DNA of 39,559 bases, from the IMG/VR virus record IMGVR_UViG_3300048928_000409, positions 1-39,559 of that record; one strand, 5' to 3'. The stretch comes from a virus. A program made the position numbers and the translations under genes. How positions within the stretch are numbered: position 1 is the first letter of the stretch; each line of letters opens with the position of its first letter. Shown here in pieces: positions 2,110 through 31,631 of this stretch. The notes beneath the pieces are model-generated. The model worked only from the letters and a program-made list of their open reading frames with translations, was not told the DNA's origin and made no database searches.

Positions 2110-2235
2110 GCACGATGACCCTCGTTTAAACCTAGGGTCAGATGCAGCGACGCCCGCTCACCTTTCGGCTGCGGGCGCACTGAATTCCAACCGTATCTAC
2201 TTGCCCCGTTTCCGTGCCCAGCGCAACCCTTATCT

Positions 2236-2289
2236 CGATGTTACGGAGAGTGACATTTTCATTGACACCGATGTTACGGAGAGTTACAT
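2236..2289. repeat. two 21-bp direct repeats in the toxin-antitoxin promoter
   Basis: CGATGTTACGGAGAGTGACAT (2236-2256) and CGATGTTACGGAGAGTTACAT (2269-2289) differ at one base and are 33 bp apart, three helical turns. Each contains a near-palindrome TGTTAC-N5-GT(T/G)ACA. Position directly before the toxin start suggests operator sites for the XRE antitoxin. Confidence 0.6.
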
Positions 2290-2290
2290 C
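2262..2290 (+). promoter_or_regulatory. promoter of the toxin-antitoxin operon
   Basis: A perfect TTGACA (2262-2267) is followed after 17 bases by TACATC (2285-2290). The second direct repeat lies over the spacer and -10, so a bound repressor would block RNA polymerase. The start ATG is at 2298, so the leader would be only a few bases. Confidence 0.5.
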
Positions 2291-2297
2291 TCTGCTC

Positions 2298-2546
2298 ATG
2301 AAGCCGATCCAGTACGCCCGCTCAGCCCTCAAGACGCTCCGCTCGATGCCCGCCAACATGTCGGCTCGGATCGTGTCGAAGGTCGAGGCTTACGCCGCAG
2401 AACCGGCTTCGCAGGCGAACAACGTCAAGGCTCTCAAGGGCAGCGACGATATCCGCCTTCGGGTAGGCGACTGGCGGGTTATCATGAACGACGGCGTCGT
2501 GCTGACCGTGACGAAGATTGGCCCACGCGGTAGCATTTACGAATGA
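2298..2546 (+). CDS. RelE/HigB-type toxin
   Basis: An 82-residue basic protein of the RelE/ParE fold, expected to cleave mRNA on the ribosome. Visible signatures are the N-terminal helices (MKPIQYARSALKTLRSM), the NVKALKG..DIRLRVGDWRVI strand pattern with the core RVGDWRVI motif, and the C-terminal VTKIGPRGSIYE. I used ATG 2298, which gives the normal family length; longer in-frame starts run through the operator repeats. Its TGA overlaps the upstream end of the antitoxin ribosome binding region. Toxin-first order is typical of HigBA-like systems. Confidence 0.85.
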   Translation: MKPIQYARSALKTLRSMPANMSARIVSKVEAYAAEPASQANNVKALKGSDDIRLRVGDWRVIMNDGVVLTVTKIGPRGSIYE

Positions 2547-2557
2547 TGGAGGCTCAC

Positions 2558-2899
2558 ATGGGTGAGATGGTTTCGATACCGATCGAAGAGTACAAGGCGC
2601 TCCAGGAGGCGGCGGAAGATCTGGCGGACATCCGCGCTTCCGCGCGCGTGAAGGCGGCCGTGGAGCACGGCGACGATGAGTACGTGCCCGCCGAACTGGT
2701 CAATCGCATCCTCGCGGGCGAAAGCCCTCTGCGGGTCTGGCGTGAATATCGCGGCCTGACGCAGCTAGCGCTATCGGAAGCGGCTGGCGTCAGCCGTGCT
2801 CAGATCGCGCAGATCGAGGGCGGCAAGCAGGTGGGCTCGGTCCAGACCCTCAAGAGCCTGGCCGAGCATCTGGGTATCACGGTTGACGATCTGATCTGA
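2558..2899 (+). CDS. XRE-family antitoxin
   Basis: A 113-residue antitoxin and autorepressor. The N-terminal half (VSIPIEEYKALQEAAEDLADIRA) is the toxin-neutralising part; the C-terminal half is a Cro/C1 helix-turn-helix (VWREYRGLTQLALSEAAGVSRAQIAQIEGGKQ...LKSLAEHLGITVDDLI). ATG 2558 has GGAGG five bases upstream; an earlier ATG at 2543 overlaps the toxin stop. It probably binds the direct repeats at 2236-2289. Its 3' end overlaps the convergent gene ending at 2877 by 23 bases. Confidence 0.85.
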   Translation: MGEMVSIPIEEYKALQEAAEDLADIRASARVKAAVEHGDDEYVPAELVNRILAGESPLRVWREYRGLTQLALSEAAGVSRAQIAQIEGGKQVGSVQTLKSLAEHLGITVDDLI

Positions 2900-3557
2900 T
2901 TCCGGACCGGGAGAGGTACGGCCCGACCGCCTCGACCAGCAGGCGCAGGCCGGTGAAGAACTCGTCCCGGATGATCTGCCGGTGCGAGCCCGACTTCGGG
3001 ACCAGCTTGACGATCGAGCGCGGCTTGCGCTTGCCCTTGCCTATGTCGATCCAGTCGACCTCGCGGCTACCGAACCGCTTCATCGCGGCTTCGGAGAACG
3101 TCAGGTCCATGAGCGCCACATCGCGCAATGTGTGCACCAAGGCGCCCAGTTGGCGCTCGATGCCCAGCAAGGTGCTTGCGCCGAACGCGCGCGCCTCGAT
3201 GGCAGAGATCGCGCCGTGTGAGCCAGCCGCACCGCGCGGCCGCACGTCCAGCGCGCACTTGGTCTCGGACATCTCGCTTGCGTCGAACGCCGCACGGTAG
3301 CAGCGCAGCGCCTTGAGCTGCTCGGTGCCGATGTCATCCATCGTTTCGAAGCGCGGTTGTTTCCGGAAGGCCTTGCCGATGGTCATGCGGCCTTTCGCCT
3401 TCACGTCAACGATGTCCTGCTCGACGTAGACCGCATGCTCGCGCTGCTCTGGTGTGGGCGCGAACGGATCAACCTTCGCGGGCTTGGTAGACGTTGGGCG
3501 GCTGGCGCGGCGCTTGGTCTGCGCTGCCATGGCTGCAATAGTTTCGTTCTTAGGCAT
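2877..3557 (-). CDS. hypothetical phage protein (DUF6456-like?)
   Basis: A 226-residue basic protein with a lysine/arginine-rich N-terminus (TKRRASRPTSTKPAK), then a helical domain whose layout (LKALRCYRAAFDASEM ... AIEARAFGASTLLGIERQLGALVHTLRDVALMDLTFSE) resembles the DUF6456-type C-terminal region of alphaproteobacterial regulators; this is a loose comparison. ATG 3557 overlaps the stop of the preceding gene by eight bases, so the start is well set by coupling. A phage regulatory role is possible. It ends inside the last codons of the converging antitoxin, which suggests the toxin-antitoxin cassette was inserted next to it. Confidence 0.55.
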   Translation of the reverse strand: MPKNETIAAMAAQTKRRASRPTSTKPAKVDPFAPTPEQREHAVYVEQDIVDVKAKGRMTIGKAFRKQPRFETMDDIGTEQLKALRCYRAAFDASEMSETKCALDVRPRGAAGSHGAISAIEARAFGASTLLGIERQLGALVHTLRDVALMDLTFSEAAMKRFGSREVDWIDIGKGKRKPRSIVKLVPKSGSHRQIIRDEFFTGLRLLVEAVGPYLSRSGIRSDRQP

Positions 3558-3717
3558 TTGTGTCGTCCAGTTCTCGCGCGAGGCGGCGGAGGCGGTTCTC
3601 AATTTCATCCCGATTTTCGAAGTAGCGCTCGGGCATGCGCCAGTCAGGCCGAAGGCGGCGCACGTCGCGCGCGATGGCGCGTAGCATCGCAGCGGGCCTG
3701 AGGTGGAGGGGCTTCAT
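3550..3717 (-). CDS. small basic hypothetical protein, 55 aa
   Basis: It begins MKPLHLRPAAMLRAIARDVRRLRP and ends ENRLRRLARELDDTNA, so it is arginine-rich and probably helical. The ATG overlaps the upstream gene's TGA (ATGA) and its stop overlaps the next start by eight bases. This gapless coupling on both sides is the main evidence that it is real. No function can be assigned. Confidence 0.6.
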   Translation of the reverse strand: MKPLHLRPAAMLRAIARDVRRLRPDWRMPERYFENRDEIENRLRRLARELDDTNA

Positions 3718-3887
3718 GTCCTGCCCTTCATCGCATCGCGCGCGAGGCCTTCGTGCAGGTCGGGATATTCACCCGCCTTCCACCGGCGGATCAGTTCGTC
3801 TCGAGACATACCATTCGCGACATCTCCTAAAAATTTGCCGTTGCCCAAGCCCACGGGGTTGGACACGGTGAACAGATCAGGCGGCAT
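3714..3887 (-). CDS. small hypothetical protein, 57 aa
   Basis: It starts MPPDLFTVSNPVGLGNGKF and contains MSRDELIRRWKAGEYPD, a pattern suggestive of a helical DNA- or protein-binding piece. Its ATG overlaps the end of the primase frame by 11 bases and its TGA overlaps the next ATG, so it is the first of three translationally coupled genes downstream of the primase. Function unknown. Confidence 0.55.
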   Translation of the reverse strand: MPPDLFTVSNPVGLGNGKFLGDVANGMSRDELIRRWKAGEYPDLHEGLARDAMKGRT

Positions 3888-4460
3888 CGGCGTCTCCCCA
3901 GTCCATCCCCGGCGTCTGCGGGATATGCACCTCGGCTTTGACCCGGTTCCGAACGACCAGCCGGTGAGCGAGTGAGTAGGCCGACGCCTGACCGCCGAAT
4001 GCGTGGTCGTTATCGCCAAACACCAGGACCTCGCCGACGCCAGCGGGAGGAACCCATTTTTCAAGACTGCCGGAATTCAGCGCTGCCCACACCGGAACGC
4101 GGAAGCGTTTGGCGGCCCTTATGGCCGTTTCGATGCCCTCAGCGATTCCGATCCGCTCGCCGTTCGCCGGGTAAAGCCTGACCGCTGATCCCGGCGGCAA
4201 CGTTCCCTGCATCATCGCCCTGGGATTCTCGATGTCGGCCTTTCCATGCGGGCCGAGGAAGGTCCGGTGAATGTTCGTGGGCTTGCCGCTGGCGTCCACG
4301 ACAACAGCGAGCAACGCCGGAAGAAAGCCGCCGCCATTCGGCACCGGGCAGCGCTCATGGAAGCGCAAGCAGTCAGGCAGGCGAGACGGGAGGGCATCGC
4401 GCCCGGCCAAGTATAGCGAAGCCAGATCGTCACCCGTCAACGCGGTAGATCCATTCCAGA
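3877..4460 (-). pseudogene. C-terminal part of a Toprim-domain phage/plasmid primase
   Basis: About 195 residues match the end of DUF7146-Toprim primases: a YLAGRDAL linker, LRFHERCPVPNG, LPALLAVVVDASGKPTNIHRT, then the Toprim motifs IAEGIETAIRA (catalytic Glu) and LVFGDNDHAFGG (the Asp pair), ending PGMDWGDADAA. Such proteins make replication primers. The upstream zinc-binding and catalytic N-terminal part is absent: beyond ~4460 the same open frame is only the antisense of a ParB-like gene on the other strand. The open frame to 5154 is therefore misleading. The truncation meets the truncated ParB gene head to head. Confidence 0.65.
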
Positions 4461-5160
4461 GACGATTGAGCCGCTCGACCTGATCAAGCGCATCGCGACC
4501 GGCTGGGACTGGCGTATGTGCCTTCCACTGGTCGTGTCGAAGCGGGACGATGGATCCCTGTGGGTGATCGACGGCCAGCACCGCCTGGCGGCTGCCAAGC
4601 TCCGCGGGGACATCCCGTTCCTGCCGTGCTGCGTCGGCGTGTTCGGCAGCGTCGCCGACGAGGCTGCGATGTTCGTCGCCATGAACCGGGCGCGCAAGCC
4701 GATGAACCGGCTCGACGACTTCCATGCGGCGCTGGCCGCATCTGATGCCGAGGCGATCGAAATCCAAGATCTGGTGTCCGAGGCGGGGCTGACGATCAGC
4801 CGAAACACCTCCTCGACGGCATGGAAGCCCGGTGAAATTGCCTTTACCGCGTCGATCGCGAGCACCCTTCGGAAGCACGGCCGCCAGATTGCGTCCGCAG
4901 CGCTGACGAACATCGCAGAGGCATTTTCCGGCCAGAGGGTTGTCCATTCGGGCTCGATTTTCCTCGGCCTGGTCAAAGTGCTCGTGTCGCCCCCCGTGGG
5001 CTTCGATCCAGACCGCATGTTCCAGGCGCTGATGCGGTACTCCGCCGAGGACTGGGGCACGTTTCTCACCGGGCTGAAGGGCGGGGACACCCGCGCCGCC
5101 GCGATCCGTGATGCCCTTCTGATGGCCTATGACGAGACGCCGGAGGTCGCGCATGTCTGA
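4417..5160 (+). pseudogene. N-terminally truncated ParB/Srx-fold protein
   Basis: The readable frame begins after a stop at 4414-4416 with SIPETIEPLDLIKRIATGWDW, then PLVVSKRDDGSLWVIDGQHRLAAA, the ParB-N signature (DGQHR), and VAMNRARKPMN. Family members have an additional N-terminal strand and a YQR motif before this point, which are missing. There is no plausible start before ATG 4516, which lies inside the domain. The C-terminal helical part is intact and its stop overlaps the next gene. Such proteins are phage- or plasmid-borne nuclease/CTPase-like regulators; the exact role is unknown. Confidence 0.6.
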
Positions 5161-8097: not shown

Positions 8098-8285
8098 GCG
8101 ACCTGCCCGACAGACTAATTCGCATCTCGGAAGTCATCGAGATAGTCGGCTATTGCAAGGCGATGATCTATCGAAAAATTCGCCAAGGCACCTTCCCGGC
8201 TCCATACAAGCCGGGAGGCTCCTCGTCGCGCTGGAGTCTTCAGGAGGTGACAGCTTGGGTCGCCAACGTGAAGGGTGAGGCCTAA
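8094..8285 (+). CDS. AlpA-type DNA-binding regulator (second copy)
   Basis: A 63-residue AlpA family protein of normal length: RLIRISEVIEIVGYCKAMIYRKI, TFPAPYKPGG, SRWSLQEVTAWVANVK. GTG 8094 overlaps the BRO stop (GTGA). It shares KAMIYR, FPA.YKPGG and SRW with the copy at 5582-5923. Its TAA overlaps the stop of the convergent integrase, which puts it in the usual place for an excisionase or integrase-control protein. Confidence 0.8.
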   Translation: MSDLPDRLIRISEVIEIVGYCKAMIYRKIRQGTFPAPYKPGGSSSRWSLQEVTAWVANVKGEA

Positions 8286-9586
8286 TCGGCAGGATTGCCG
8301 ACTGATCTGCGCATGGGCTGACCGATGAACGACTGAGGTTCGCTGAAACCGTCCAGCAGCATGTCGGCCCATTCCTGCGCAAGCTCCCGGCGGCGGGGCA
8401 TGAAAGCCGCGCGATTGTACGCGCTTTCCACCTTATCCTTGGGGACGTGCGCCAGCATCAGATCGATGATCGCGCGGTCCCCGCCCCTCCCAGCCGCATC
8501 CGCGCGTTCATTCATGATCGTAGAAAACGCCGCGCGGAAACCGTGGGGCACATGGCGCTGATAATAACCCGACCTGATAAGCATCGCCCTGAGCGTATTT
8601 TCCGAGATGGGCTTGTGCAGATGCCGTTCGCTAGGGAACATCAGGTCGAGGTTGCCAGTCAGCGGACGGAGGGCGCGCAGGACCGCGACAGCTTGCTTCG
8701 AAAGCGGCACCAGATGGTCGCCGCCGACCTCAGCCTTACGATCCTCATCGCCTTTCATGCGAGCAGCCGGGATCCGCCATGTAGGCTCGTCGCCGTCGAG
8801 GCCCTCGATCTCCTGCCACCGCGCGTGGCGTAGCTCGCCGGGTCGGACAACAGTCAGCGCCAGCAGCCGAAGAGCCAGTTTTGTGCCCGCACGGCTCCGC
8901 TCCGCCTCGCATGCGGCGAGCATCGTGCGCATGCTTTCCAAATCGGTCAGGGCCGGCTGGCGACGGGCGCGAGGCTTAGGGCTGAGGGCCTTACCCAAGC
9001 TGGCCGCCGGATCGGCGGTCGCGATACCAGCCGCAATGGCATAGACGAACACCGCAGATATCCGCTGGCGTAGCCGGTGCGCGGTTTCAACGGCGCCTCG
9101 CTTTTCGACGATCGTCAGCAAATCCAAAAGGCGCGGCGCATCGATAGCCGTGATTGGAAGCGCTCCGATGGCTCCAAACACGTTTTCCTCCAGACTGTCC
9201 CACACCTTGGTCGCGTGACGCGGAGCCCACGTCCCCTTCTTCTTGTCATACCACGCCTGCGCCACGGCTTTGAAGGTGTTGCCCGATTCGGATGCCTTCG
9301 CATGGGCTGCCAGCCTGCGCTCGGTTGCTGGGTCGCGGCCGTCGATCAGCATCGACTTTGCGTCATCGCGCCTGCGTCTTGCATCGACGAGCGTCACTGC
9401 GGGGTATGGACCGAACGTCAACGTCTTTTGCTGGGGCTTGCCAGCGGCGTTCCGTCCGAAAGTGTAGTTCATCCGCCAATGCTTACCGCCAGCGGGAGAG
9501 ACGTGGAGGTAGAGCTGATTCGCGTCGGCCAGCTTGTAAGCCTTATCGCGCGGCCTGGCGGCCTTCACCTTTGCGTCTGTGAGCAC
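8282..9586 (-). CDS. int: P4-type tyrosine integrase
   Basis: A 434-residue site-specific recombinase with the N-terminal DUF4102 arm-binding domain (VLTDAKVKAARPRDKAYKLAD...LYLHVSPAGGKHWR), a SAM-like core-binding domain and the catalytic domain. Catalytic residues visible are Arg in TVVRPGELRHARW, the HGFRAAFSTIMNE box, His in LAHVPKDKVESAYNRA and the nucleophile Tyr in the same segment. GTG 9586 has GAGG five bases upstream and gives the family start; longer upstream starts run through operator palindromes. Such integrases usually insert at tRNA 3' ends. It appears intact. Confidence 0.9.
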   Translation of the reverse strand: MLTDAKVKAARPRDKAYKLADANQLYLHVSPAGGKHWRMNYTFGRNAAGKPQQKTLTFGPYPAVTLVDARRRRDDAKSMLIDGRDPATERRLAAHAKASESGNTFKAVAQAWYDKKKGTWAPRHATKVWDSLEENVFGAIGALPITAIDAPRLLDLLTIVEKRGAVETAHRLRQRISAVFVYAIAAGIATADPAASLGKALSPKPRARRQPALTDLESMRTMLAACEAERSRAGTKLALRLLALTVVRPGELRHARWQEIEGLDGDEPTWRIPAARMKGDEDRKAEVGGDHLVPLSKQAVAVLRALRPLTGNLDLMFPSERHLHKPISENTLRAMLIRSGYYQRHVPHGFRAAFSTIMNERADAAGRGGDRAIIDLMLAHVPKDKVESAYNRAAFMPRRRELAQEWADMLLDGFSEPQSFIGQPMRRSVGNPAD

Positions 9587-9597
9587 ATCAACCTCGA

Positions 9598-9647
9598 TAC
9601 CATGCCTGCCATGGTAGATACCATGGAATATGCCCTGCGACATGGTA
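9598..9647. promoter_or_regulatory. palindromic operator upstream of the integrase
   Basis: Four half-sites alternate: TACCATG (9598), CATGGTA (9610), TACCATG (9619), CATGGTA (9641). They form TACCATG-N5-CATGGTA and the perfect CCATGGTA-GA-TACCATGG (9609-9626). Placed at the integrase start, they are likely binding sites for an integrase regulator or for integrase itself. Confidence 0.55.
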
Positions 9648-9749
9648 GACGCGAATAGACTGCCATACCCAAAGCCCGACCGATTACGCGCCAAAATTGG
9701 CAGAAATCAAGGCTCTGTAGACTGATATATCCCGCGATGTAATGGGAAG

Positions 9750-10348: not shown

Positions 10349-11149
10349 ATGGGACAACGGAAAGATAGACGGCGTCGCTTTTTTGCCGAGCATCCGTTCT
10401 GCTGCTTTTGTGGTGGGGATGTACCGGCAACGTCAGTAGATCATGTACCCAACAGAGCGAGCTTTCCAAAGCGGGAAGGGCCAGAGGGATACGAATTTCC
10501 GGCCTGCACGGCCTGCCAGACCGACACACGCCTGGACGAGATTGCGTTCTCCTGCATGGTTTATTTCAATAACCACGACAAGTCTCTTTTCGACGAGCAA
10601 GGTTTTACCCGACTGATTCAGGGATTGAAAAACAATCTCCCCCACATGAACGAATTTCAGGATCTATCCCCAAACCAGAAGCGCCGCGCGCTAGCGCATT
10701 TTGGAATAGAGCGTCCTCACGGAACGCCGCTCGCCGAAGTAGGCTTGGTTACGGTACACCCTGAGTTTAACATGCGAACGAAAAGGTACTTGTGTAAGCT
10801 AGCAAGAGCACTCTTTTACAAGCACGTGGGACGCCCAGCAAAATCTTCGTCGATAGCGTGGTCGTCATGGGCGCAAGGCCAAGCCACGAACAGCCACAAA
10901 GCTCTCGAACAATGGCTGGCTATCACTCCCATCCATGTTCAAGGCACTAGGTCGAATTTCGATTTTGGTGATCGCTTCCGATACCGGATCAATTATTCCG
11001 ATGAGTTGGAAGTGTTCGTGGCGGCAGGCCAATTTGGAGAAGGCCTGATCTTCTATCTTTCCCTAGCGTCGGAGGAGATCGCGGCGAACCTGAATAAGGA
11101 TGCGTTTGAGTTTGGCGCAGAGCGCAGCGTATCGCCTTCTGCGACTTGA
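10349..11149 (+). CDS. HNH-type endonuclease domain protein, 266 aa
   Basis: Residues 18-56 carry a zinc-HNH-like core: CCFCGG (Cys18/19/21), TSVDHVP (Asp31-His32), then EGYEFPACTACQ (Cys53, Cys56). The C-terminal ~200 residues are of unknown fold, helical then strand-rich. It is a likely nuclease; target unknown. It converges with the proteasome-like gene at 11235-12152 with an 85-base gap. Its AT content is somewhat higher than that of the phage structural genes. Function as cargo, perhaps in defence, is only inferred. Confidence 0.65.
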   Translation: MGQRKDRRRRFFAEHPFCCFCGGDVPATSVDHVPNRASFPKREGPEGYEFPACTACQTDTRLDEIAFSCMVYFNNHDKSLFDEQGFTRLIQGLKNNLPHMNEFQDLSPNQKRRALAHFGIERPHGTPLAEVGLVTVHPEFNMRTKRYLCKLARALFYKHVGRPAKSSSIAWSSWAQGQATNSHKALEQWLAITPIHVQGTRSNFDFGDRFRYRINYSDELEVFVAAGQFGEGLIFYLSLASEEIAANLNKDAFEFGAERSVSPSAT

Positions 11150-11234
11150 GGTTCGATCCCGAGCCGGAATCTCAACCGCTTTGGCACAATTAGCAACCCA
11201 CCGTGGATCGGTGATAATTCGGCCGAGTAGCGCA

Positions 11235-12152
11235 TCAAGAAGGCGCAGCGTCCAGCACCTTTGGCGCACCCCGGTGACAAAACCGATATTTTTTCCCGCT
11301 GCCACATGGACACTTCGCGTTTCGATGGACCTTGGGAACAGCCATGGGCGGCGCATCGTCATCCACGACCTTCAAACTCATATTCCTTATTGAAACAACA
11401 CCACCGGCATTATCGATATTCACGGCAGCGGGGAATACTATTTCACGCGAGACACTTGAATATGATCTGTTAACAATTATTGGAGATGCATCACTCCTGA
11501 TTATGATGCTATCTATATGCTTCCCAATCGTATTCCCACTTCTTGGGTCGTCAGCAATTTTCCGAACACGATTTTCCAGAATGGAAAGCATGGCTTCCGG
11601 TGGCACGTTTCTCTTTAACGCATCCCGAATTTCATCTTCATACTGACTTTCGAATGCTGCAGAATTCCCAAAGACCCCAGCCCAAGTCCATGGCTCTTTA
11701 GACGGACGTATTTCGGACGAAAAGCCAACTCGAAACCGCCCTTCTACATCACCTATATTAGTGATGTATGCAGCAATGCCTACAGGTGGTGCGACTGAGT
11801 AGTTGTATCCTGTAAACGTCAAATCAAGCCTGCGGATTGCGACCGGCAACCGGCTAATAATTGGATCAGAGAAGAAGTGGGCATTGAGATCGGCTGTTAA
11901 GCCTTCCAGCAACTCTATCGGGGAAAATGTTGTCTTTCCCCGCTGCTCAAGTCGACTGATGAGCCAAGCCGCAGTCTCGTGCCTACCGGCCAGCGCCAAA
12001 CCAGTGAAAGCGACTGTCAGACGAAATCCTGGAACGGTGAGTGAAAAGCACTTGTTATGCTCCTCCTCAATCACGTTGCCAGCGTTGGTCAGCCGGCAGT
12101 CCGAAACTTGCACGGCGTAATTGGCATTCATGGCGGTCAGTATGAGTGTCAT
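11235..12152 (-). CDS. proteasome-like Ntn-hydrolase with C-terminal SEC-C motif
   Basis: A 305-residue protein. After removal of Met the first residue is Thr (MTLILTA), with Asp at mature position 17 (VSDCRLT) and Lys at 33 (EEHNKCFSL). This is the Thr1/Asp17/Lys33 catalytic set and spacing of proteasome beta subunits, and FRLTVAFTGLALAG fits the following strand and Gly. Residues ~277-295 are a SEC-C zinc motif (CPCGSGKKYRFCH; C281, C283, C292, H293), as found at the C-terminus of SecA. It could be an N-terminal-nucleophile peptidase directed to targets by the zinc motif. No partner subunit is visible. ATG 12152 leaves Thr at position 2, as the mechanism needs. Confidence 0.6.
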   Translation of the reverse strand: MTLILTAMNANYAVQVSDCRLTNAGNVIEEEHNKCFSLTVPGFRLTVAFTGLALAGRHETAAWLISRLEQRGKTTFSPIELLEGLTADLNAHFFSDPIISRLPVAIRRLDLTFTGYNYSVAPPVGIAAYITNIGDVEGRFRVGFSSEIRPSKEPWTWAGVFGNSAAFESQYEDEIRDALKRNVPPEAMLSILENRVRKIADDPRSGNTIGKHIDSIIIRSDASPIIVNRSYSSVSREIVFPAAVNIDNAGGVVSIRNMSLKVVDDDAPPMAVPKVHRNAKCPCGSGKKYRFCHRGAPKVLDAAPS

Positions 12153-12762
12153 GAGTCCGCTTACTTCATCCCCTTTGCAAGGGGTATCGGAAAAAACGTA
12201 ACATACGTAACCTTGGCGGAAATCCGCCGTTTTTCGCGTAACCGATAGCGTAACATCAGGGTAACGAGATTACATTTTCAGAATGTAACTTTTAGGATCA
12301 GAAAACCTTAGAATTTCTGCGGGTGTTACATTTTCAAGCGGGAAAGGTTGCGGCCGATTACACCGGCGATGTAATCTGAAAAACGACGGTTTTCTGCGGG
12401 CTTCAGGCTGAAATTTGGTGTTTGGTTACGGATATTACGTTTTCCCACCCCCTCCTTCGGTCGCCGACGCGGCCAGCAAACATTTTCTCGATCGTCGATC
12501 GCCGCTCGATAGGCCTGCCAGCTGCATCAAAGTGCATCAGCACAGAGCCTGTCGTCATCGCCGCTCGGCCTAGGAAGCCAGCAATTTTCCCGGCGCAGCC
12601 GATGTGCATCAAAACCGACACGAAAAGTGCGCGGGCGAGGCGGGGGATTAAGCGCGCTTTGAGGGGGTGCAGCTTCGTGTCGGGGTTGCGCAACATTGTT
12701 ACACGTCCCGAGGCTGCCCGCTGGCAATTGACGGGCGCCTTGGCGGGGCGCACGATCGCCGC
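12153..12762. promoter_or_regulatory. non-coding region with many TTACA/TGTAA boxes
   Basis: No supported gene in about 610 bases. Between 12190 and 12450 there are about ten GTAAC/TTACA elements. Two are perfect dyads: TTACATT-N5-AATGTAA (around 12270-12288) and GATTACA-N7-TGTAATC (12356-12376). Others are single boxes, such as the GTAACATACGTAAC pair near 12198. The sequence is AT-richer than the surroundings. It could be a replication or transfer origin, or a control region for the divergent genes at 12152 and 12763. Confidence 0.45.
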
Positions 12763-13416
12763 ATGTGCAACCTGTACCGGATGACAGCGCCTGCGGACGC
12801 GGTCGCGGGATTGTTCCGAGCGACCACGGCCGCCGGGTCGAACTTCGCGGCTGAGATCTACCCCGGCTATCCCGGCCTCGTCATCGCTGACGGCGCGGTC
12901 CGCGCGATGAACTGGGGCTTCCCCCTCGTCCTCAAGAGCAAGAAGACCGACGCGCCGCTTAAGCCCAAGCCGGTGAACAATACCCGCGAGGACAAGTTGC
13001 ACACTGGCTTCTGGGTCGACAGCTTCCGCAAACGGCGTTGTCTGATCCCTGTCACCGCCTGGGCAGAGGCCGAGGGCGCGAAAGGCGCAATGACGCGCAC
13101 ATGGTACTCGCTGCCTGATCAGGACCTGTTCGCGGTCGCGGGCGTGTGGCGACCGACCGCAGAGTGGGGAGACGCCTACTCCATGGTCATGGTAGATGGC
13201 TGCGAGCAGATGGCTGACGTGCATGACCGCATGCCAACGATCCTCCGCCGAGAGGAGTGGGAGCGTTGGACGAACGGAGATCCGGATGAAGCCTTTGCAC
13301 TTTGCCGCGTCTACGACGCCCCGCTCGTGGTCGATCGCACTGACGTGCCTTGGTTCAAGAGAACCAGCCTACCACCTGCCCCACGAACGCAGCCACCATC
13401 AGCAATGCTATTATGA
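12763..13416 (+). CDS. SRAP-domain protein (YedK/HMCES family)
   Basis: A 217-residue SOS response-associated peptidase-like protein that forms a covalent crosslink with abasic sites in single-stranded DNA. Catalytic Cys2 is exposed after Met removal (MCNLYRMTAP). Other family hallmarks are MNWGFPL, NNTREDK, RRCLIPVTAWAE (the Glu) and ADVHDRMPTIL (active-site His). ATG 12763 is fixed by the need for Cys at position 2. The C-terminus (after WFKRTSL) is Pro-rich. Phages and plasmids often carry copies. Confidence 0.9.
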   Translation: MCNLYRMTAPADAVAGLFRATTAAGSNFAAEIYPGYPGLVIADGAVRAMNWGFPLVLKSKKTDAPLKPKPVNNTREDKLHTGFWVDSFRKRRCLIPVTAWAEAEGAKGAMTRTWYSLPDQDLFAVAGVWRPTAEWGDAYSMVMVDGCEQMADVHDRMPTILRREEWERWTNGDPDEAFALCRVYDAPLVVDRTDVPWFKRTSLPPAPRTQPPSAMLL

Positions 13417-23318: not shown

Positions 23319-23820
23319 CCTGCGCCGCTGGCTGACAGCCTATCTGCCGGACCTGAAGGCAAACCCGGAGAACCTGAGCATCTATATCGAAGCGGGCCAG
23401 ATCAACGCCCGCCGATCGAAGACGCTGTCGTTCTCCTACAGCTATTCGCTCAAGGTAACGATTTTCGACTTCGCCGCCGATCCCGATACGCTGATGGTCC
23501 CGATCCTCGCATGGATCGAGAAAGAACAGCCGCAGCTGCTGCAGCGCTCGGACAACCAGCCTTTCGGCTTCGAAGCGCAGCCGCTCGACACCGAGAAGTT
23601 TGACATCGAGATCGCCATCGACCTGACCGAGCCGGTACTCGTGATTCCCCGGCCGGACGGCAGCGGCTACGACGTCGAACATATCCCCGAACCCAAGTTC
23701 CCTGACAGCTTCGCGGGCGTCCACGCGTCGTTCCTGCAGGGCTTCGGCAATACCGAATTGCTGGTGGAGACCGAGGATCCTGAAGCCGTGCTCACGCCTG
23801 CCGTGCCGCCCGCCGCATGA
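23302..23820 (+). CDS. R: P2-like tail completion protein (gpR)
   Basis: A 172-residue tail terminator of the P2 gpR family: MRKANDLRRWLTAYLPDLKANPENLSIYIEAGQI, SYSLKVTIFDFAADPDTLMVPILAWIEKEQPQLL and FDIEIAIDLTE. ATG 23302 gives the family start and has GGAGGGG upstream. Overlaps the end of Rz1 and, by four bases, gpS. Confidence 0.9.
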   Translation: MRKANDLRRWLTAYLPDLKANPENLSIYIEAGQINARRSKTLSFSYSYSLKVTIFDFAADPDTLMVPILAWIEKEQPQLLQRSDNQPFGFEAQPLDTEKFDIEIAIDLTEPVLVIPRPDGSGYDVEHIPEPKFPDSFAGVHASFLQGFGNTELLVETEDPEAVLTPAVPPAA

Positions 23821-24494
23821 GCGACGATCTTGCCGAACTGGAACGGGTAGCTGGCGCCCTCCTGCGCAGCCTGTCTGCGGGAGAGCAGCGCGGCCTGATG
23901 CGACGCATGGGCCGCGACCTCGCCGCCAGCCAGCGCCGCCGTGTAACCGCCCAGCATCAACCGGACGGCAGCGCCTTTGAAGCGCGGCGGGAGCGGACGC
24001 CCGCTCAGCCAGGACGCGGCCCGACCTGCTTCCTGTATCCTGCGGGGGGCGGCGGCGAACCCCGCCGCGTCCTGATGAAGAGCTTCACATGGGGCAGCGG
24101 GCATATGCTCACCGGCTTCGACATCGAGGCTGGCGCGATCCGATCGTTCGAGCGGGACAAGATCGTGAAGTGGCTCCCTGTGCCCGAGGAGCATCGCAGC
24201 GGCAGCGCCGCCCGCAAGCGCCCGGCCCGCATCCGCCGCCGCGCCATGTTCCGCCGCCTGGCCACGGCACGATTTCTGCGCAGCGGTGTAGACGATCAGG
24301 GCGTGTGGGTCGGCTTCACCGGCAAGGTCGCGCAGATCGCAAGCGTCCACCAGCACGGCTTGCGTGACAAGCCCTCGTTGAGTGCCAAGGCAGTGGCCTA
24401 TCCGAAGCGCGAGTTACTTGGCATTACTGAAGGGGAAAGTAATATGTTGCTCGACATTCTATACTCGCAACTATCCGCATCTGCCGAACTATAA
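23817..24494 (+). CDS. S: P2-like virion morphogenesis protein (gpS)
   Basis: A 225-residue tail completion protein of the gpS / phage virion morphogenesis family: LSAGEQRGLMRRMGRDLAASQRRRV..Q..PDGSAFEARR, later RRRAMFRRLATARFL and VHQHGLRDKPS. The last ~30 codons (GITEGESNMLLDILYSQLSASAEL) are AT-richer and run into the convergent SIR2-like gene with a 6-base overlap, so insertion of that gene probably replaced or kept only the 3' end. Confidence 0.85.
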   Translation: MSDDLAELERVAGALLRSLSAGEQRGLMRRMGRDLAASQRRRVTAQHQPDGSAFEARRERTPAQPGRGPTCFLYPAGGGGEPRRVLMKSFTWGSGHMLTGFDIEAGAIRSFERDKIVKWLPVPEEHRSGSAARKRPARIRRRAMFRRLATARFLRSGVDDQGVWVGFTGKVAQIASVHQHGLRDKPSLSAKAVAYPKRELLGITEGESNMLLDILYSQLSASAEL

Positions 24495-25583
24495 CAACTC
24501 CTGCATCAGGCGCATACGATGATTGCCAATCAAATCGCTACAGAGTCCGTTCTCTACGTCGATGAACCCGTCGTCCTGTGATCGAGCAGCATACTGCATG
24601 TTCAAAAAATTGGTATTGGGAGAAACAAATCGCTCCAGCTGATTTGCTATGACCACCTTGTCCGATGACGAAATTCCGTAGGTCGTAGCATGTATTCTGT
24701 GTGCTCCACGTTCGGATAGGTCCGGTGTGAGCAATTCCATATTCTGTGGCAAGAACCCAAAACCCAAAAACACTAGTGTGTGAGCTTCACCAATCGCCTT
24801 CCGCGCGCGGTCCACAACATGCGTATCAATCGATTCTGTAAAAGTTTTCAGGCCTTCGGCTATCCTCATAAGATCGGCCGATTGGTAACCAAACGGCACT
24901 TGGTAATTCTCAGTCCGGGCAAGCGGGCCGAGAGAGCCGTAAGGATGAATTATATCCACCGTTGAAAGAATATCTGCGGCGTCCTGCTCACCGATTCCAT
25001 AATAGTTTACTAGTGCCCGAAGCATCACCAGCTCAAAGCAACGATCATAATTGAATACAATAAATCGCGCGTTCCCAAAAAGCGCTTCCGGTTCGCTCGA
25101 TCGAGTTCCCATTGTGAGCATCTTCACAAAAGATGAATACCACGAACCGGCAAATTTAGCGTTCTCTAAGGGGTCGGCTTTCAAGGGACGATGGCTGCTC
25201 TTCGGAACTGCCAACGGGGATGCTGCTTCTGCATCAAGTATCGCAGCAGCTATTGCCAGCTTTCCCACTAGAATAACATCGGGATCGTCTTGATGAGTGT
25301 GGAGAAAGTTATCGATAGAAGCTGCGACAGGCATGCCTTTTCGAATTGAGTCCGCAGCCCGGCTCAGATTTGCAGCTCGTGTCGACCACGACGTACCAGC
25401 ATCTAAAAATATGGTCTGGAAAGCGTCCCATATCCTATCATTGACAATTTTTTGTCCGTAGCCGGGACTGCCATCCGTGACCAACAATTCGGCAATCCGC
25501 CCCTGCAAGCCGTCACCGGTTGGGAAATTGAAGTCGCAGCTGGCGCCTGCTCCGATCACGAAAGTCGTTGGTGTCGATAGCAT
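24489..25583 (-). CDS. SIR2-like protein, candidate anti-phage NADase (moron)
   Basis: A 364-residue SIR2-like protein. Motifs in order: nucleotide-binding TFVIGAGASCDFNFPTGDGL at the N-terminus, SIDNFL near 90, FIVFNYDRCFELVM (Asn178, equivalent to the NYD of SIR2), DIIHPYGSLG (His213, equivalent to the catalytic HGS) and TLVFLGFGFLPQNMELL. SIR2 domains of this type in Thoeris, DSR and SIR2-HerA systems cleave NAD+ to abort infection. It has no second domain. ATG 25583 is preferred to a TTG at 25586. It is AT-richer than its neighbours, opposite to the late genes, and inserted between gpS and gpJ. Confidence 0.7.
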   Translation of the reverse strand: MLSTPTTFVIGAGASCDFNFPTGDGLQGRIAELLVTDGSPGYGQKIVNDRIWDAFQTIFLDAGTSWSTRAANLSRAADSIRKGMPVAASIDNFLHTHQDDPDVILVGKLAIAAAILDAEAASPLAVPKSSHRPLKADPLENAKFAGSWYSSFVKMLTMGTRSSEPEALFGNARFIVFNYDRCFELVMLRALVNYYGIGEQDAADILSTVDIIHPYGSLGPLARTENYQVPFGYQSADLMRIAEGLKTFTESIDTHVVDRARKAIGEAHTLVFLGFGFLPQNMELLTPDLSERGAHRIHATTYGISSSDKVVIANQLERFVSPNTNFLNMQYAARSQDDGFIDVENGLCSDLIGNHRMRLMQELL

Positions 25584-25617
25584 CAATTAACATCCGCAAA
25601 ATGTTGATCGTGCTTGG

Positions 25618-25623
25618 ATTATC
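25618..25623 (-). promoter_or_regulatory. possible -10 element for the SIR2-like gene
   Basis: GATAAT read on the minus strand lies 35 bases before the ATG. No convincing -35 is seen. It would give the moron a promoter separate from the late genes. Confidence 0.25.
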
Positions 25624-25665
25624 AGGGCTGCCCGGGATTGAAAGGGTCGCAAATCGACAGTCCCG

Positions 25666-25691
25666 CATTTGGACAATCAGCTAGCCAAATG
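25666..25691. promoter_or_regulatory. Ogr-like activator site 2 (J-I-H operon)
   Basis: CATTTGG-N12-CCAAATG with perfect arms, 45 bp before the ATG of gpJ, followed by CAGCCC as at site 3. Same architecture as sites at 17748 and 32034. Confidence 0.75.
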
Positions 25692-25735
25692 CAGCCCAGT
25701 AGCGCTGCCCCCATGCTTGCCGCGACATGGGCTGC

Positions 25736-26743
25736 ATGGCCGATGCAACCTTCACCGCCGTAGACCTGTCGCGCATTCCGCTGCCTGACGCTGTCGAGGA
25801 ACTCGATTTCGAGACCCTCTTCGCGCGGGCACTTGCGCGCATGAAAGCATTGATGGCGGAAGAAGGCGTCGAGTTCGACGGCCGCGAGAGCAACCCCTCC
25901 ACCCGCGTCCTTCAGGTCTTCGCCTACGAGGTCCAGCTGCTGCTGCAGCGCCTCAACGAGGCCGTCCGCGCGGTCATGGTCGCCTATGCCGTAAAAAACG
26001 ACCTCGACAATCTCGCCGCCGGTTTCGGCGTGGTCCGCCGGACCATCACTCCCGCCGACGATGTGCTCGGCATTCCGGCCGTGATGGAAAGCGACACCGA
26101 ATTCCGCCGCCGCATCGTCCTGGCACCGGAAGGCTATTCGGTCGCCGGTCCCGAGGGCGCCTACATCTACCACGCGCTTTCCGCGCATCCCAACGTGCTC
26201 GACGCCAGCGCCACCAGCCCCGCGCCGTACGATATCCGCGCACTCGTACTGGGCGTCCTGCAAGCCAATGCCGCCAACAATGCGCTGGTGACGGCGATGA
26301 CCACCGCGCTCGACGGCGCGATCTGGCCCGGCGAAGTCATCGTCTCGCTCCTGTCCCGCGTTGATAGCGGCGCCGCCAGCGCGGATCTGATCGAAGACGT
26401 CGGCGCGTACCTGTCCAGCGAGGACATCCGCCCGCTGACCGACCATGTCATCACGCAGTCTGCCGAGATCGTTCCCTACACCGTCGAGGGCACGATCAAG
26501 ACGTTCTCCGGCCCCGATGGCGGCGTGGTCATGGATGCCGCGCTTGCCAGCGCCAAGGCCTACACTGACGAAAGCCACCGGCTCGGCCGCGACATCACCC
26601 TGTCGGGCCTGCATGCCGCGCTGCACGTCGAAGGCGTCCAGAACGTCCACCTAACCCAGCCTCCGGCCGACATCATCATTTCGCGAACGCAGGCACCGTA
26701 CTGCACCAAGATCGACGTCTCTTACGCGGGCGTTGACGAATGA
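25736..26743 (+). CDS. J: P2-like baseplate protein J
   Basis: A 335-residue baseplate wedge protein of the Baseplate_J family: LSRIPLPDAVEELDFETLFARALARMKALM, YEVQLLLQRLNEAVRAVMVAYAVKNDLDNLAAGFGV and ESDTEFRRRIVLAPEGYSVAGPEGAYIYHALSA are family hallmarks. ATG 25736 (MADATFT) fits the conserved promoter spacing; an in-frame ATG at 25727 would add three residues. No Shine-Dalgarno is evident. Overlaps gpI by four bases. Confidence 0.92.
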   Translation: MADATFTAVDLSRIPLPDAVEELDFETLFARALARMKALMAEEGVEFDGRESNPSTRVLQVFAYEVQLLLQRLNEAVRAVMVAYAVKNDLDNLAAGFGVVRRTITPADDVLGIPAVMESDTEFRRRIVLAPEGYSVAGPEGAYIYHALSAHPNVLDASATSPAPYDIRALVLGVLQANAANNALVTAMTTALDGAIWPGEVIVSLLSRVDSGAASADLIEDVGAYLSSEDIRPLTDHVITQSAEIVPYTVEGTIKTFSGPDGGVVMDAALASAKAYTDESHRLGRDITLSGLHAALHVEGVQNVHLTQPPADIIISRTQAPYCTKIDVSYAGVDE

Positions 26744-27291
26744 CCTTCGCCTCGCTCCTGCCTCCCGGCTCCACGGCATTGCAGAAGGCCCTCGAACGGG
26801 TCGGCTCCGAAATGCTGGACATCCCGCTCCTCGTCCGCGCGGTGAAGTCCGCCGACGACAGCCCGCTGCAGTTCCTGCCGTGGCTGGCGTGGGAGCGCTC
26901 GCTCGACAACTGGTCATCCGACTGGCCCGAGGCGATCCGTCGCGAGCGCGTCCGCCAGGCGATCCCGATCGCGCGGCGCAAAGGCACGGCGGCATCGGTG
27001 CGCGCCGTGGTCCAGAGCTTCGGCGGATCGGTCGCTCTGCGCGAATGGTGGCAGATGGAGCCGAAGGGCATTCCGCACACTTTCGACCTCGTGCTCAACC
27101 TCGAACAGAAGGGCGCGCCCGCCAGCGCCGCCTTCGTCGATCAGGTCATCGCCGAGGTCAGCCGCGCCAAGCCGGTGCGCAGCCACTTCACCTTCACCCA
27201 AGGCATCAACGCCGCCGCAGATGTCGGCTTGATCGCGACCGTTCGTCCCACCCTCTTCGCCCGCCTGTCCTGCACGGCACCGGCGGCCTGA
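26740..27291 (+). CDS. I: P2-like tail protein I
   Basis: A 183-residue baseplate protein of the P2 gpI family: SLLPPGSTALQKALERV, LPWLAWERSLDNWSSDWPEAIRRERVRQAIPIARRKGTAASVRAVVQSFGG, then EWWQMEPKGIPHTF. The WLAWE...W.....R...I...R.KGT motif is diagnostic. ATGA overlap with gpJ. Confidence 0.92.
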   Translation: MTFASLLPPGSTALQKALERVGSEMLDIPLLVRAVKSADDSPLQFLPWLAWERSLDNWSSDWPEAIRRERVRQAIPIARRKGTAASVRAVVQSFGGSVALREWWQMEPKGIPHTFDLVLNLEQKGAPASAAFVDQVIAEVSRAKPVRSHFTFTQGINAAADVGLIATVRPTLFARLSCTAPAA

Positions 27292-27302
27292 CCGGAGCAC
27301 CC

Positions 27303-29966
27303 ATGGCCCTCACCATTACCGTCACCAATGCGGGCCGCGCCGCGCTTGTGAACGCCGCCAACACCGGCACCGCTGCGGTCACGATCGCGCAGGTCGGCGT
27401 TTCCGGCGTCGCGGTGGCCCCCAGCACCACGGCCATCACCCTGCCCGGCGAAAGCAAGCGCATCGCCACCCTCTCGGGCGACGTGGTCGCGGACGATACG
27501 ATTCACATGATCGTCCGAGACGAAGGCACGTCGGTCTATACGGTGCGCAGCTTCGCGCTGTACCTTGCCGACGGCACCCTGTTCGCGATCTACGGCCAGG
27601 CTGATCCAATCCTCGAAAAGTCGTCGCAGGCGATCATGCTGCTCGCGATCGACGTCCAGTTCGCCGACGTCGCCGCCGCGCAGCTGACGTTCGGCGACAC
27701 GAACTTCCTCAACCCGCCCGCAACCACCGAGACGATCGGCGTTGTCGAACTGGCCACCCTTGCCGAGACCATCGCCGGTCTCGACACCTCGCGCGTCCCC
27801 GCCGCCAGAATGGTGAAGGACGCGGTGGCCTCATGGCTCGACGCGCGCTTCGGCGCGAACAATGCGGGCATCTGGCATCCGGGGAACGACGGCGCCGGTT
27901 CCGGCCTCGACGCCGACCTGCTCGACGGCCAGCAGAGCAGCTTCTATCTGAACATCCCGGCCCGGCTCGGTTACACGCCGATCCAGCAGGGAACCGGCAA
28001 CGCCCAACTGCCGAACATCGTCAAAATCGGATGGAGCGCTGCCACCCGTCTCAAGGCCACGGTGGACGCCACCGACCTCGGCAACATCGTGTTCGATGCC
28101 CACATCTCGGACGTATGGCGCGCGGCGAACGACGGCGCTGGCTCCGGCCTCGATGCTGATCTGCTCGATGGACAGGACGGCAGCTACTACACGAACATCC
28201 CGGCCCGCCTCGGCTATCAGCCCGTCAATAGGGCTGGCGATACGTTTGGCGGCACCGTCACTGTTCCGGCCCTTCGCGTCGTCGGCGGGGCCGGGCAGAA
28301 CGGGCTTTCGGGCGGCAACGGCGACGCTGCCACCTACAGCGTCTTCAACATGGCGCTCGACGTCTGGTATGGCCTCGGCCTCCGGACTTTCGACGGCTCG
28401 GTGAATGGTGTCTATGATGCCCGCTTGGGCCGATGGGACGTAAAGACCGGCTACCGCATCAATGGCGTCGATGTCTGGCACCCCGGCAACGACGGCGCCG
28501 GTTCCGGTCTCGACGCTGACCTGTTCCAGGGCAGAGACCCCAGCTATTACACCGCGATCCCCGCGCGACTTGGCTTCCAGCCTGTCCAGCAGGGCACCGG
28601 CGTCGGCCAGCTTGCTGCGAACGTCATCCGCATCGGGTGGGGCAGCAACAGCCGCGTTCGCGTCACCGTCGACAACACCGACGCGGGCAACGTCGTGTTC
28701 GACGGCCATATCGCCGACGTTTGGCGTTCCTCCAACGATGGCAGCGGCTCGGGTCTCGATGCCGACTTGCTCGATGGGCATGACAGCACCTACTACACCA
28801 ATGTCGCAGGCCATCTCGGGTTTACTCCGGTTCGCCAAGGCGGCGGCGTCAACCAGCTTTCGAACGTCATCAAGATCGGATGGAGCGGTACCCGCGTCCT
28901 CGCCACCGTGGACGCAACCGATCAGGGTCCGATTGTCTTCGACACCCATATCGCGAATGTGTGGCGGTCCACCAACGACGGCAGCGGTTCGGGCCTCGAC
29001 GCCGACTTGCTCGACGGCGTCCAAGGCGCGAACTTTGCGCGCACCGATCTCACCGGGGGCGTCGCCTTTGCTGGCGGGGTCACAGCGCCTTATCTTGGCT
29101 CGTCGGGAGACATCATCGCTGCCGGCACTGTAACCGGCGCGGCAGTGCGGATCGCGAGCGGAGCGCAGATCAATGGCTTCTTGGGCGGCGTCGGAGACGG
29201 CGCCAGCTTCACGAACTACAACCTGACGCTGGCAGTACACTGGGGTCTTGGCCTGCGGACCTATGACGGCTCGGTCAACGGTGTCTACGACGCCCGCGAG
29301 GGCCGATGGAACGTCAGGGCCAGCTATCAGGTCAACGGCATCAATGTCTGGCACGGCGGCAATGATGGCAGCGGCTCGGGACTGGATGCCGACTTACTCG
29401 ACGGAAGCGACGGGAGCTTTTACGCCAACATCCCCGCCCGTCTCGGTTTCTGGCCGGTGCGCCAGGGCGGCGGCGCCAACCAGACGACCAACACCGTCTA
29501 CATCGGATGGTCGAGCGGCTCGCGTCTGCGCGCGCAGGTCGACAGCACCGACCTTGGCCCGATCGTGTTCGATGGCCACATCGCCGACGTGTGGCGTTCC
29601 GCCAATGACGGCAGCGGGTCAGGCCTCGATGCCGACTTGCTCGATGGCCTGGAGGGTGCCGCCTACCTTCGCGACATCGGCAGCAACCTCGAACAGACCG
29701 GCTACCTGAAGCTCAGCAACGGCTTGATCCTGCAATGGGGCTGGGTCGCCAACCTGACGAATCGGGCGAACAACACGATCACGTTCCCGATCGCCTTCCC
29801 CAGCGGCGCGCTCGCAATGTGGCCTTCGCTCGGCACCGGTATCGGCATTGGTGACAGCAACTTCTCGATCGGCGCCCAGCCACTCAGCACCACACAGGGG
29901 CGGATCGCCATCGCCACCTCAAGCGGGGGGACGATCGGTTGCTACTGGTACGCCTTGGGCAAGTGA
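27303..29966 (+). CDS. repeat-rich tail fibre protein (gpH-like)
   Basis: An 887-residue receptor-binding fibre. The N-terminal ~180 residues (MALTITVTNAGRAALVNAANTGT...) are the baseplate-attachment domain of P2-type fibres. The middle contains seven copies of NDG(A/S)GSGLDADL..G, mostly followed by IPARLG(Y/F).P, an IGW..... R..ATVD strand and VFD.HI.DVWR. Two longer units carry an extra GLRT(F/Y)DGSVNGVYDAR.GRW block. The C-terminus (GYLKLSNGLILQWGW...FPIAFPSGALAMWP...WYALGK) is a gp53-like knob that likely binds the host. ATG 27303 follows gpI by 11 bases; a longer open frame upstream is the gpI antisense-free shadow. Confidence 0.88.
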   Translation: MALTITVTNAGRAALVNAANTGTAAVTIAQVGVSGVAVAPSTTAITLPGESKRIATLSGDVVADDTIHMIVRDEGTSVYTVRSFALYLADGTLFAIYGQADPILEKSSQAIMLLAIDVQFADVAAAQLTFGDTNFLNPPATTETIGVVELATLAETIAGLDTSRVPAARMVKDAVASWLDARFGANNAGIWHPGNDGAGSGLDADLLDGQQSSFYLNIPARLGYTPIQQGTGNAQLPNIVKIGWSAATRLKATVDATDLGNIVFDAHISDVWRAANDGAGSGLDADLLDGQDGSYYTNIPARLGYQPVNRAGDTFGGTVTVPALRVVGGAGQNGLSGGNGDAATYSVFNMALDVWYGLGLRTFDGSVNGVYDARLGRWDVKTGYRINGVDVWHPGNDGAGSGLDADLFQGRDPSYYTAIPARLGFQPVQQGTGVGQLAANVIRIGWGSNSRVRVTVDNTDAGNVVFDGHIADVWRSSNDGSGSGLDADLLDGHDSTYYTNVAGHLGFTPVRQGGGVNQLSNVIKIGWSGTRVLATVDATDQGPIVFDTHIANVWRSTNDGSGSGLDADLLDGVQGANFARTDLTGGVAFAGGVTAPYLGSSGDIIAAGTVTGAAVRIASGAQINGFLGGVGDGASFTNYNLTLAVHWGLGLRTYDGSVNGVYDAREGRWNVRASYQVNGINVWHGGNDGSGSGLDADLLDGSDGSFYANIPARLGFWPVRQGGGANQTTNTVYIGWSSGSRLRAQVDSTDLGPIVFDGHIADVWRSANDGSGSGLDADLLDGLEGAAYLRDIGSNLEQTGYLKLSNGLILQWGWVANLTNRANNTITFPIAFPSGALAMWPSLGTGIGIGDSNFSIGAQPLSTTQGRIAIATSSGGTIGCYWYALGK
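27885..29648 (+). repeat. tandem coding repeats in the tail fibre gene
   Basis: Repeat units begin at about 27885, 28128, 28488, 28734, 28974, 29361 and 29604. Spacings are 243, 360, 246, 240, 387 and 243 bp, so short (~81 codon) and long (~120-129 codon) units alternate as S-L-S-S-L-S. Unit boundaries are conserved at DNA level. Confidence 0.85.
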
Positions 29967-30638: not shown

Positions 30639-30639
30639 G

Positions 30640-30791
30640 TGATCGGCGGCACTTCCCGCCGCCCAGTTCCCCCTTTACGGAAGGGGGTCTCGGATGTTCC
30701 CGCATCTCGAAACCAGCGAGCCTGCACTCGCACTCTCAGGGCAGCGCGCCTGCCCCCTCGAGCACCCTTCCGCGTCTCAGGCGCGGAAGGG
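30640..30791 (+). promoter_or_regulatory. hairpin-rich leader before the Dam-type methylase
   Basis: Three hairpins lie in the 174-base gap: GGCGG/CCGCC near 30644-30661, CCCCCTT (30669-30675)/AAGGGGG (30681-30687), and a perfect 10-bp stem CCCTTCCGCG (30765-30774)/CGCGGAAGGG (30782-30791). No T-runs follow, so attenuation or mRNA processing is as likely as termination. Confidence 0.4.
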
Positions 30792-30812
30792 ACATCGTGC
30801 AGGATCAATCAC

Positions 30813-31631
30813 ATGTCTACCCCTTTTGTTCTCGTTCGACCCGTTTCTCCCCCGGCCGGTTACATCGGCGGAAAACGGAACCTTTCCAAGCGCATCTGCG
30901 CCATTCTCGACCGCACGCCGCACACCAGCTACGCTGAGCCATTCGTGGGCATGGGCGGCATTTTCCTGCGCCGATCGCGGCGCCCGAAGGCCGAAGCGAT
31001 CAACGATATTTCCGGTGACGTGGTAGGCCTGTTCCGCTGCCTCGCCGAGCACTATCCCTACCTCGTCGACATGCTGCGCTTCCGCGTCACCAGCAGGGCC
31101 GAGTTCGAGCGGCTGCTCGGGCAGGATCCCGAACGACTGACCGACCTGCAACGCGCCGTGCGGTTCCTCTACCTCCAGCGCCTGGCATTCGGCGGCAAGG
31201 TGTCCGGCCGGACCTTCGGCGTCAGTGCCTCGACCCCGGCGCGCTTTGACGTCAGCAAGATCGAGCCGATGCTCGCCGACATCCATGACCGGCTGCAATC
31301 TGTAGTGATCGAGCGCCTGCCCTATAGCGATTTCATCCGCCGCTATGACCGCGAAGGCGCCCTGTTCTACCTCGATCCGCCCTATTGGGCCTGCGAGAAG
31401 GACTACGGCCCCGACGTCTTCACCCGCGAGGACTTCGCGGCGCTGGCTGACCAGCTAGCTGGCATCAAGGGCAAGTTCGTGATGTCGCTCAACGACAACG
31501 AGGGCGTGCGCGAGACGTTCGGCAGATTCATCGTTTCGCCGATCGACACGACATATAGCGTCGGCGCGGCGTCGCGACCGGCGCGCGAAGTGCTGATCAG
31601 CAACTTTGCGCCTGCCGCTAACGATATCTGA
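30813..31631 (+). CDS. Dam-type DNA adenine methyltransferase
   Basis: A 272-residue N6-adenine methyltransferase of the D12 class. The N-terminal PAGYIGGKRNLSKRICAIL, the SAM-binding YAEPFVGMGGIFLRR and the catalytic FYLDPPYW (DPPY) are all present, with the target-recognition region in between. Length matches Dam/D12 enzymes. AGGA precedes ATG 30813. Phage copies protect DNA from host restriction or alter expression. It separates the fibre genes from gpV. Confidence 0.9.
   Translation: MSTPFVLVRPVSPPAGYIGGKRNLSKRICAILDRTPHTSYAEPFVGMGGIFLRRSRRPKAEAINDISGDVVGLFRCLAEHYPYLVDMLRFRVTSRAEFERLLGQDPERLTDLQRAVRFLYLQRLAFGGKVSGRTFGVSASTPARFDVSKIEPMLADIHDRLQSVVIERLPYSDFIRRYDREGALFYLDPPYWACEKDYGPDVFTREDFAALADQLAGIKGKFVMSLNDNEGVRETFGRFIVSPIDTTYSVGAASRPAREVLISNFAPAANDI

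Follow-up and report, generated by a model that had tools for sequence, protein, structure and literature searches.

Between the tail completion gene S and the baseplate gene J of a P2-like phage we find, on the minus strand, a gene for a SIR2-fold protein that has no second domain and no recurring partner gene in its family. From its fold, the conservation of its active site and the company it keeps, we consider it probable that this prophage cargo gene (a moron) encodes a self-contained SIR2-type NADase, which would protect the lysogen, and thus the prophage, by abortive infection. SIR2 effectors, P2 cargo genes, the fold and the mode of carriage are already known; the apparent novelty is a family of partnerless single-domain SIR2 proteins that is both coherent and widespread. 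Coordinates below refer to the window, i.e. the whole stretch of 39,559 nucleotides that was analysed, an IMG/VR virus record, which also contains an integrase gene (8285-9694). The relevant features are as follows.

24455-25664 (no strand): swapped cargo segment between S and J, delimited by breaks in blastn identity; the last S codons lie inside it.
24489-25583 (minus strand): stand-alone SIR2-fold protein of 364 aa, ATG at 25583, stop at 24491-24489; identified from homologues, an AlphaFold2 model and structural matches.
25539-25553 (minus strand): GAGAS, residues 11-15, Rossmann nucleotide-binding loop; G11 and A12 in 104 of 105 sequences, G13 in 103 of 105.
25143-25478 (minus strand): helical insertion, residues ~36-147, inside the SIR2 fold; from the secondary structure of the model and regional conservation.
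25305-25319 (minus strand): SIDNF motif, residues 89-93; S89 and D91 invariant in the family alignment.
25227-25265 (minus strand): GK (107-108) to E119 of the helical insertion; E119 invariant in the family alignment.
25041-25052 (minus strand): NYDR, residues 178-181, with the predicted catalytic Asn178; N, Y, D and R all at ~100%; aligns with NYDR of the NADase KomC.
24936-24947 (minus strand): HPYG, residues 213-216, with the predicted catalytic His213; H in 102 of 105 sequences, G216 in 105 of 105.
24741-24770 (minus strand): FLGFGFLPQN, residues 272-281, second nucleotide-binding strand; G274 and N281 invariant; aligns with FIGYSLSDIN of KomC.

The ORF is flanked by S (23817-24494, plus strand; PF05069, 3e-27; phrog_26) and J (25727-26743, plus strand; PF04865, 2e-17; phrog_6), matches that, together with the ORF coordinates, bear out its earlier placement on the strand opposite to these two genes. 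It converges with S, and the two stops overlap by 6 bases (24489-24494). The longest reading of the frame, 24489-25586, allows a TTG start; we prefer the ATG at 25583 because homologues open with the same M-x4-T-x-F-V-x-GAGAS pattern. As already remarked in the preliminary description, the gene is AT-richer than its surroundings, with a GC content of 0.49-0.53 versus 0.62-0.70 around it. GC3 is 0.50 in the ORF, compared with 0.76 in S and 0.82 in J; across S, J, I and FI it ranges from 0.76 to 0.88. It is a real, foreign gene. The possible -10 element of its own, also proposed there, was not recovered: a sigma-70 scan gave no minus-strand site, and with one site in all, a plus-strand one, it stayed under the mean of 1.9 for shuffled sequence.

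Late genes of the window are ordered R-S-[SIR2]-J-I-H...methyltransferase-V/W-FI-FII-T-U-D. In P2 the S-J interval contains V and W; here it does not, and both follow the methyltransferase. This DNA methyltransferase (30639-31631; phrog_56), flanked by the tail fibre and V/W, is a further insertion in the late region and is 92-96% identical in relatives. The large fibre ORF (26733-29966) has repeated 'NDGSGSGLDADLLDG' blocks, i.e. tail fibre repeats, and a Gp53-like C-terminus. Beyond Q, on the side of the P2 A-Q hotspot, ORFs of 266, 305 (with a SEC-C motif) and 273 aa occupy 10349-13224; two of the three have no Pfam match, and the stretch may be a second cargo site.

On its own, the window protein is hard to place. 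It matches no Pfam, NCBIfam or PHROG model and scores weakly against the SIR2 models of PADLOC (7e-4), tblastn with it returned no phage record, and exact peptide patterns recovered no viral or genome locus. A match to ribosomal S13 in a single-sequence search of the PDB was dismissed as chance. A plasmid search gave Rhizobium and Agrobacterium homologues that share 30-35% identity with it; two carry the annotation 'SIR2 family protein'. The profile built from these plasmid homologues gathered the best 80 of 217 bacterial loci and 34 loci on viral contigs. Conservation was counted in an alignment of 105 non-redundant sequences, Pfam and PADLOC matches in 95 members.

Homologues are ~28-39% identical to the window protein, with no relative above ~40% in the collections searched. 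Their lengths are almost all ~330-392 aa, mostly 340-370 aa, and they occur in phages of unrelated types, on plasmids and in several phyla, mostly Pseudomonadota. The window protein clusters with sphingomonad and viral-contig members (support 88-91 in a quick tree; the grouping is not starred). Pfam SIR2_2 (PF13289) matches 51 of the 95 members, at best with 2.8e-7, and PADLOC Aga_SIR2 matches 54; AbiH (PF14253) matches five, weakly (at best 2.7e-4). Neither Pfam model matches the window protein itself. KomC, a SIR2 NADase, is the only solved family with a good sequence-profile score (2.7e-6). We found no curated model of its own for this partnerless single-domain family in the libraries searched, and the open-licence papers searched report no test of a stand-alone family of this kind.

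The GAGAS, NYD (Asn178) and HPYGS (His213) motifs are present at the residues first assigned to them. Loss of the Asn/His pair across homologues, which would have spoken against a SIR2 enzyme, was looked for and not found: N178 is present in 105/105 sequences and H213 in 102/105, with the GAG loop conserved at 98-99%. As judged from the alignment, the three exceptions at H213 (L062, L054 and L076) may be either alignment shifts (HRPYG) or true losses. Altogether, N178, Y179, D180, R181, Y215, G216, G274, N281, S89, D91 and E119 are essentially invariant among the 105 sequences. The only conserved cysteine columns are C182 and C348, with no conserved CxxC pair, so that the family has no zinc-binding module.

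We built an AlphaFold2 model from 95 sequences, with a mean pLDDT of 91.2 and a pTM of 0.91. Its best Foldseek matches are SPARSA, SIR2-HerA, an archaeal Sir2, DSR2 and ThsA. With VIA-align, it superposes on PsSIR2 (8w9l) with Z 14.1 over 251 residues at 4.3 Å, on SIR2/HerA (8wld) with Z 13.7, on ThsA with Z 13.2 over 221 residues at 3.2 Å and on SPARSA with Z 12.7; KomC (Z ~12.2-12.5), DSR2 (12.2) and classical sirtuins (~12) follow. The top structural matches are thus all SIR2 proteins, and the non-SIR2 Rossmann match named beforehand as a refuting outcome did not appear among them. By its fold the protein is a SIR2 protein, and its Asn/His active-site pattern is conserved.

The structural alignments run from residue 1 to ~360 and therefore leave no second domain; all 364 residues are confidently predicted to fold as one body, in agreement with the earlier reading that no other domain is recognisable. 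The same reading had set aside some 150 residues as a separate sensor region, and this part is not supported by the model. What exceeds the SIR2 core is the helical insertion at ~36-147, within the fold, together with residues 301-364 at the C-terminus, which vary moderately. Regional conservation along the insertion is 0.25 / 0.56 / 0.24, with variable ends (36-65 and 126-147) around a conserved core (88-125). From the model, any sensor would have to lie inside the SIR2-like fold or on an oligomer surface, rather than in a separate domain.

The S-J gap serves as a cargo site and occurs in swapped and in empty states. With J as a query, we found phages 93-96% identical in this gene, and compared the DNA of six relatives that hold both flanks (L121-L124, L127 and L128). 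Blastn identity of ~89-95% breaks off near 24412-24454, where S has its last codons, and is regained at 25665-25685, shortly ahead of J. Between these conserved flanks the close relatives carry different cargo, as the survey of the interval suggested in the preliminary description was meant to reveal: a short membrane-like protein in L121, a lipoprotein-like gene in L122, a 280-aa unknown protein in L124 and a 124-aa one in L128. In L123 (3826-4827) the cargo is a lone ParA-like AAA_31 ATPase that weakly matches PDC-M28B, a PADLOC candidate (1e-7). In L127 (2813-4822) it is a protein of 669 aa whose matches, to HATPase and HSDR_N-like models, are weak and which has none in PADLOC; this is a candidate new defence gene. 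The more distant L130 (J 58% identical) has a minus-strand cassette of four genes (651-4507), for a Dcm-type methylase, Vsr, a HATPase protein with weak similarity to MzaB and a Methyltransf_35 protein, which looks like a compact restriction/defence system. L132 carries an acyltransferase. At the same site, L137 (4344-4886) and L138 (4341-4844) encode two proteins that are related to each other, of 180 aa and 167 aa, respectively; that of L137 has no PADLOC match. Most S-J cargo is antisense to the late genes, like the SIR2 ORF of the window. In three genomes of the sphingomonad order (L153, L159 and L162) S and J almost touch, only 70-111 bp apart. L140 and L141, with V and W in their S-J gap, were left out of the cargo cases.

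In P2 itself, orf30 directly follows S and belongs to the three regions in which horizontal acquisition is recognised (PMC3091744). The foreign gene of the window, also directly behind S, takes the position of this orf30 locus, which lies between S and V. Its position differs from the experimentally studied P2 defence hotspots, the A-Q interval (PMC9122126) and the Z/fun locus (PMC9519451). The S-J (P2 orf30) position of sphingomonad P2-like prophages is worth mining for defence genes, because relatives carry the Dcm/Vsr cassette, GHKL-type ATPases and the ParA-like ATPase there.

Homologues occupy other places in other prophages. In P2-like prophages they lie on the far side of the portal gene Q (L088) or beyond D (L094 and L096). 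The homologue of L120 follows a tail completion gene of phrog_26, to which S of the window also belongs. In an HK97-type cluster the homologue is antisense between the major head protein and the connector Ad1 (L087), and in L091 antisense directly behind the major head protein. Two follow a CI-like repressor directly and in the same direction (L007 and L096). Such carriage, antisense in head clusters or behind CI-like repressors, would fit expression in the lysogen. In five Rhizobiales (L034, L037, L040, L057 and L065) the homologue sits in one shared chromosomal housekeeping context, possibly an integration hotspot or the result of vertical inheritance.

We clustered the genes within 7 kb of 100 loci by an all-against-all search, and no neighbour family occurred in more than 8 of the 100 loci. 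Together with the uniform length of the 105 sequences, this agrees with the stand-alone character first proposed for the protein. The commonest neighbour families were rejected as partners, being ABC ATPases at scattered distances or part of the shared Rhizobiales context. Same-strand ORFs ending just before the gene belong to no common family and are mostly non-genes; small 'capH' neighbour matches were set aside, as they included the prophage CI-like repressor of L007. Defence genes found next door to genomic homologues include Hachiman HamA, Type IIG RM, PDC-S05, Mad3 and MTases, in a descriptive tally from mechanical gene calling without a matched control; they are only suggestive of defence.

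On another reading the protein is an orphan effector, a SIR2 NADase triggered by a host or prophage sensor encoded separately (e.g. through a nucleotide signal, or by a DNA-bound ATPase elsewhere); it would then stand alone in its gene order but not in its function. Its closest fold matches, SIR2/HerA, KomC, SPARSA and ThsA, are indeed effector subunits with partners. We nevertheless regard this as unlikely: no linked partner emerges from the 100 loci, carriage by so many unrelated phages, plasmids and phyla favours a self-contained unit, and a SLOG sensor domain such as that of ThsA is absent by size.

A self-contained NADase would work as follows. The protein would be made in the lysogen from a promoter of its own and rest in an inactive form. 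A product of the incoming phage, or a change that it causes in the cell, would alter its assembly via the helical insertion or the C-terminal surface. The trigger would have to act on a single chain, most likely through its assembly, in line with other SIR2 immune proteins, for which multimerisation is part of activation (PMC12700824). The active form would then hydrolyse NAD+ using Asn178 and His213, and the infected cell would stop growing or die before the invader matures.

The SIR2 fold serves ADP-ribosylation (SirTM) and deacylation as well. The conserved NAD site, as read from the alignment, would suit NAD+ hydrolysis, ADP-ribose transfer or ADPR signalling and does not separate them. 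The same pocket could modify a target or make a messenger, and the invariant residues outside the catalytic pair (S89, D91, E119, R181 and N281) are compatible with such an ADP-ribosyltransferase or maker of an NAD-derived signal. The zinc module is absent, however, and the closest structural matches are NADases. SirTM proteins are linked to macrodomains (PMC12700824), yet no macrodomain gene recurs next door. Such chemistry is accordingly improbable, to about the same degree as a sensor encoded elsewhere.

A lysogenic conversion gene with a role outside defence, e.g. in stress or in the control of host metabolism, would find company at the S-J site in the acyltransferase of L132 and the lipoprotein-like gene of L122. 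Against it speak the presence of the family in many unrelated mobile elements and the SIR2_2 fold class, which is dominated by known immune effectors (PMC12700824), and we give it a small chance. A decaying or chance ORF without function, to which the unsupported promoter and the want of a relative above ~40% identity could point, is ruled out for practical purposes by family conservation, the 364-codon frame being intact and all invariant residues kept.

Defence by NAD+ destruction, the reading we favour for the window protein, invites a bolder proposal for the whole family, which we advance only tentatively. A single SIR2-like domain of 340-370 aa may both sense infection, through the helical insertion or a filament surface, and destroy NAD+; unrelated temperate phages would repeatedly carry it, expressed in the lysogen and often antisense in a cluster of virion genes. 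If true, a single domain would make up a minimal SIR2 immunity system. Characterised SIR2 effectors couple the NADase to a sensor or a partner, and a family without both makes phage sensing by a bare domain, and likewise the role of the helical insertion, directly testable.

To our knowledge, all well-studied SIR2 effectors of defence have a sensor domain or a partner, neither of which is seen in the window family. The SIR2 subunit of SIR2/HerA (Nezha; 8w9l, 8wld and 8sub) is the best structural match and is similar in size (~360-400 aa) and in its N/H pattern, but SIR2/HerA needs an adjacent HerA ATPase, whereas the window gene neighbours S and J, and its family has no HerA or other recurring partner. 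The SIR2 domain of ThsA (Thoeris) also matches; contrary to the window protein, ThsA has a C-terminal SLOG sensor and pairs with the adjacent TIR protein ThsB. DSR1 and DSR2 are single-gene SIR2 defences whose SIR2 domain matches with Z ~12, but with their large sensor region at the C-terminus they reach ~1000 aa, compared with 364 aa here. SPARSA/SIR2-APAZ joins a SIR2-APAZ fusion to a short pAgo, and the window family has neither a second domain nor a recurring neighbour. Another gene listed as stand-alone in abortive infection is AbiH, whose similarity to the family is weak. Canonical sirtuin deacylases contain a zinc module with four cysteines, which the family lacks. This module, required for deacetylation, is missing from SIR2_2 proteins, and the SIR2_2 immune sirtuins and human FAM118 are without it (PMC12700824), as is the window family. 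KomC (Kongming) has 264 aa, works with KomB and KomA and lacks the long helical insertion; it is nonetheless a small SIR2-only protein, and its GAG-S..LP, NYDR and G-[FY]-[SF]..N blocks are common to the window family.
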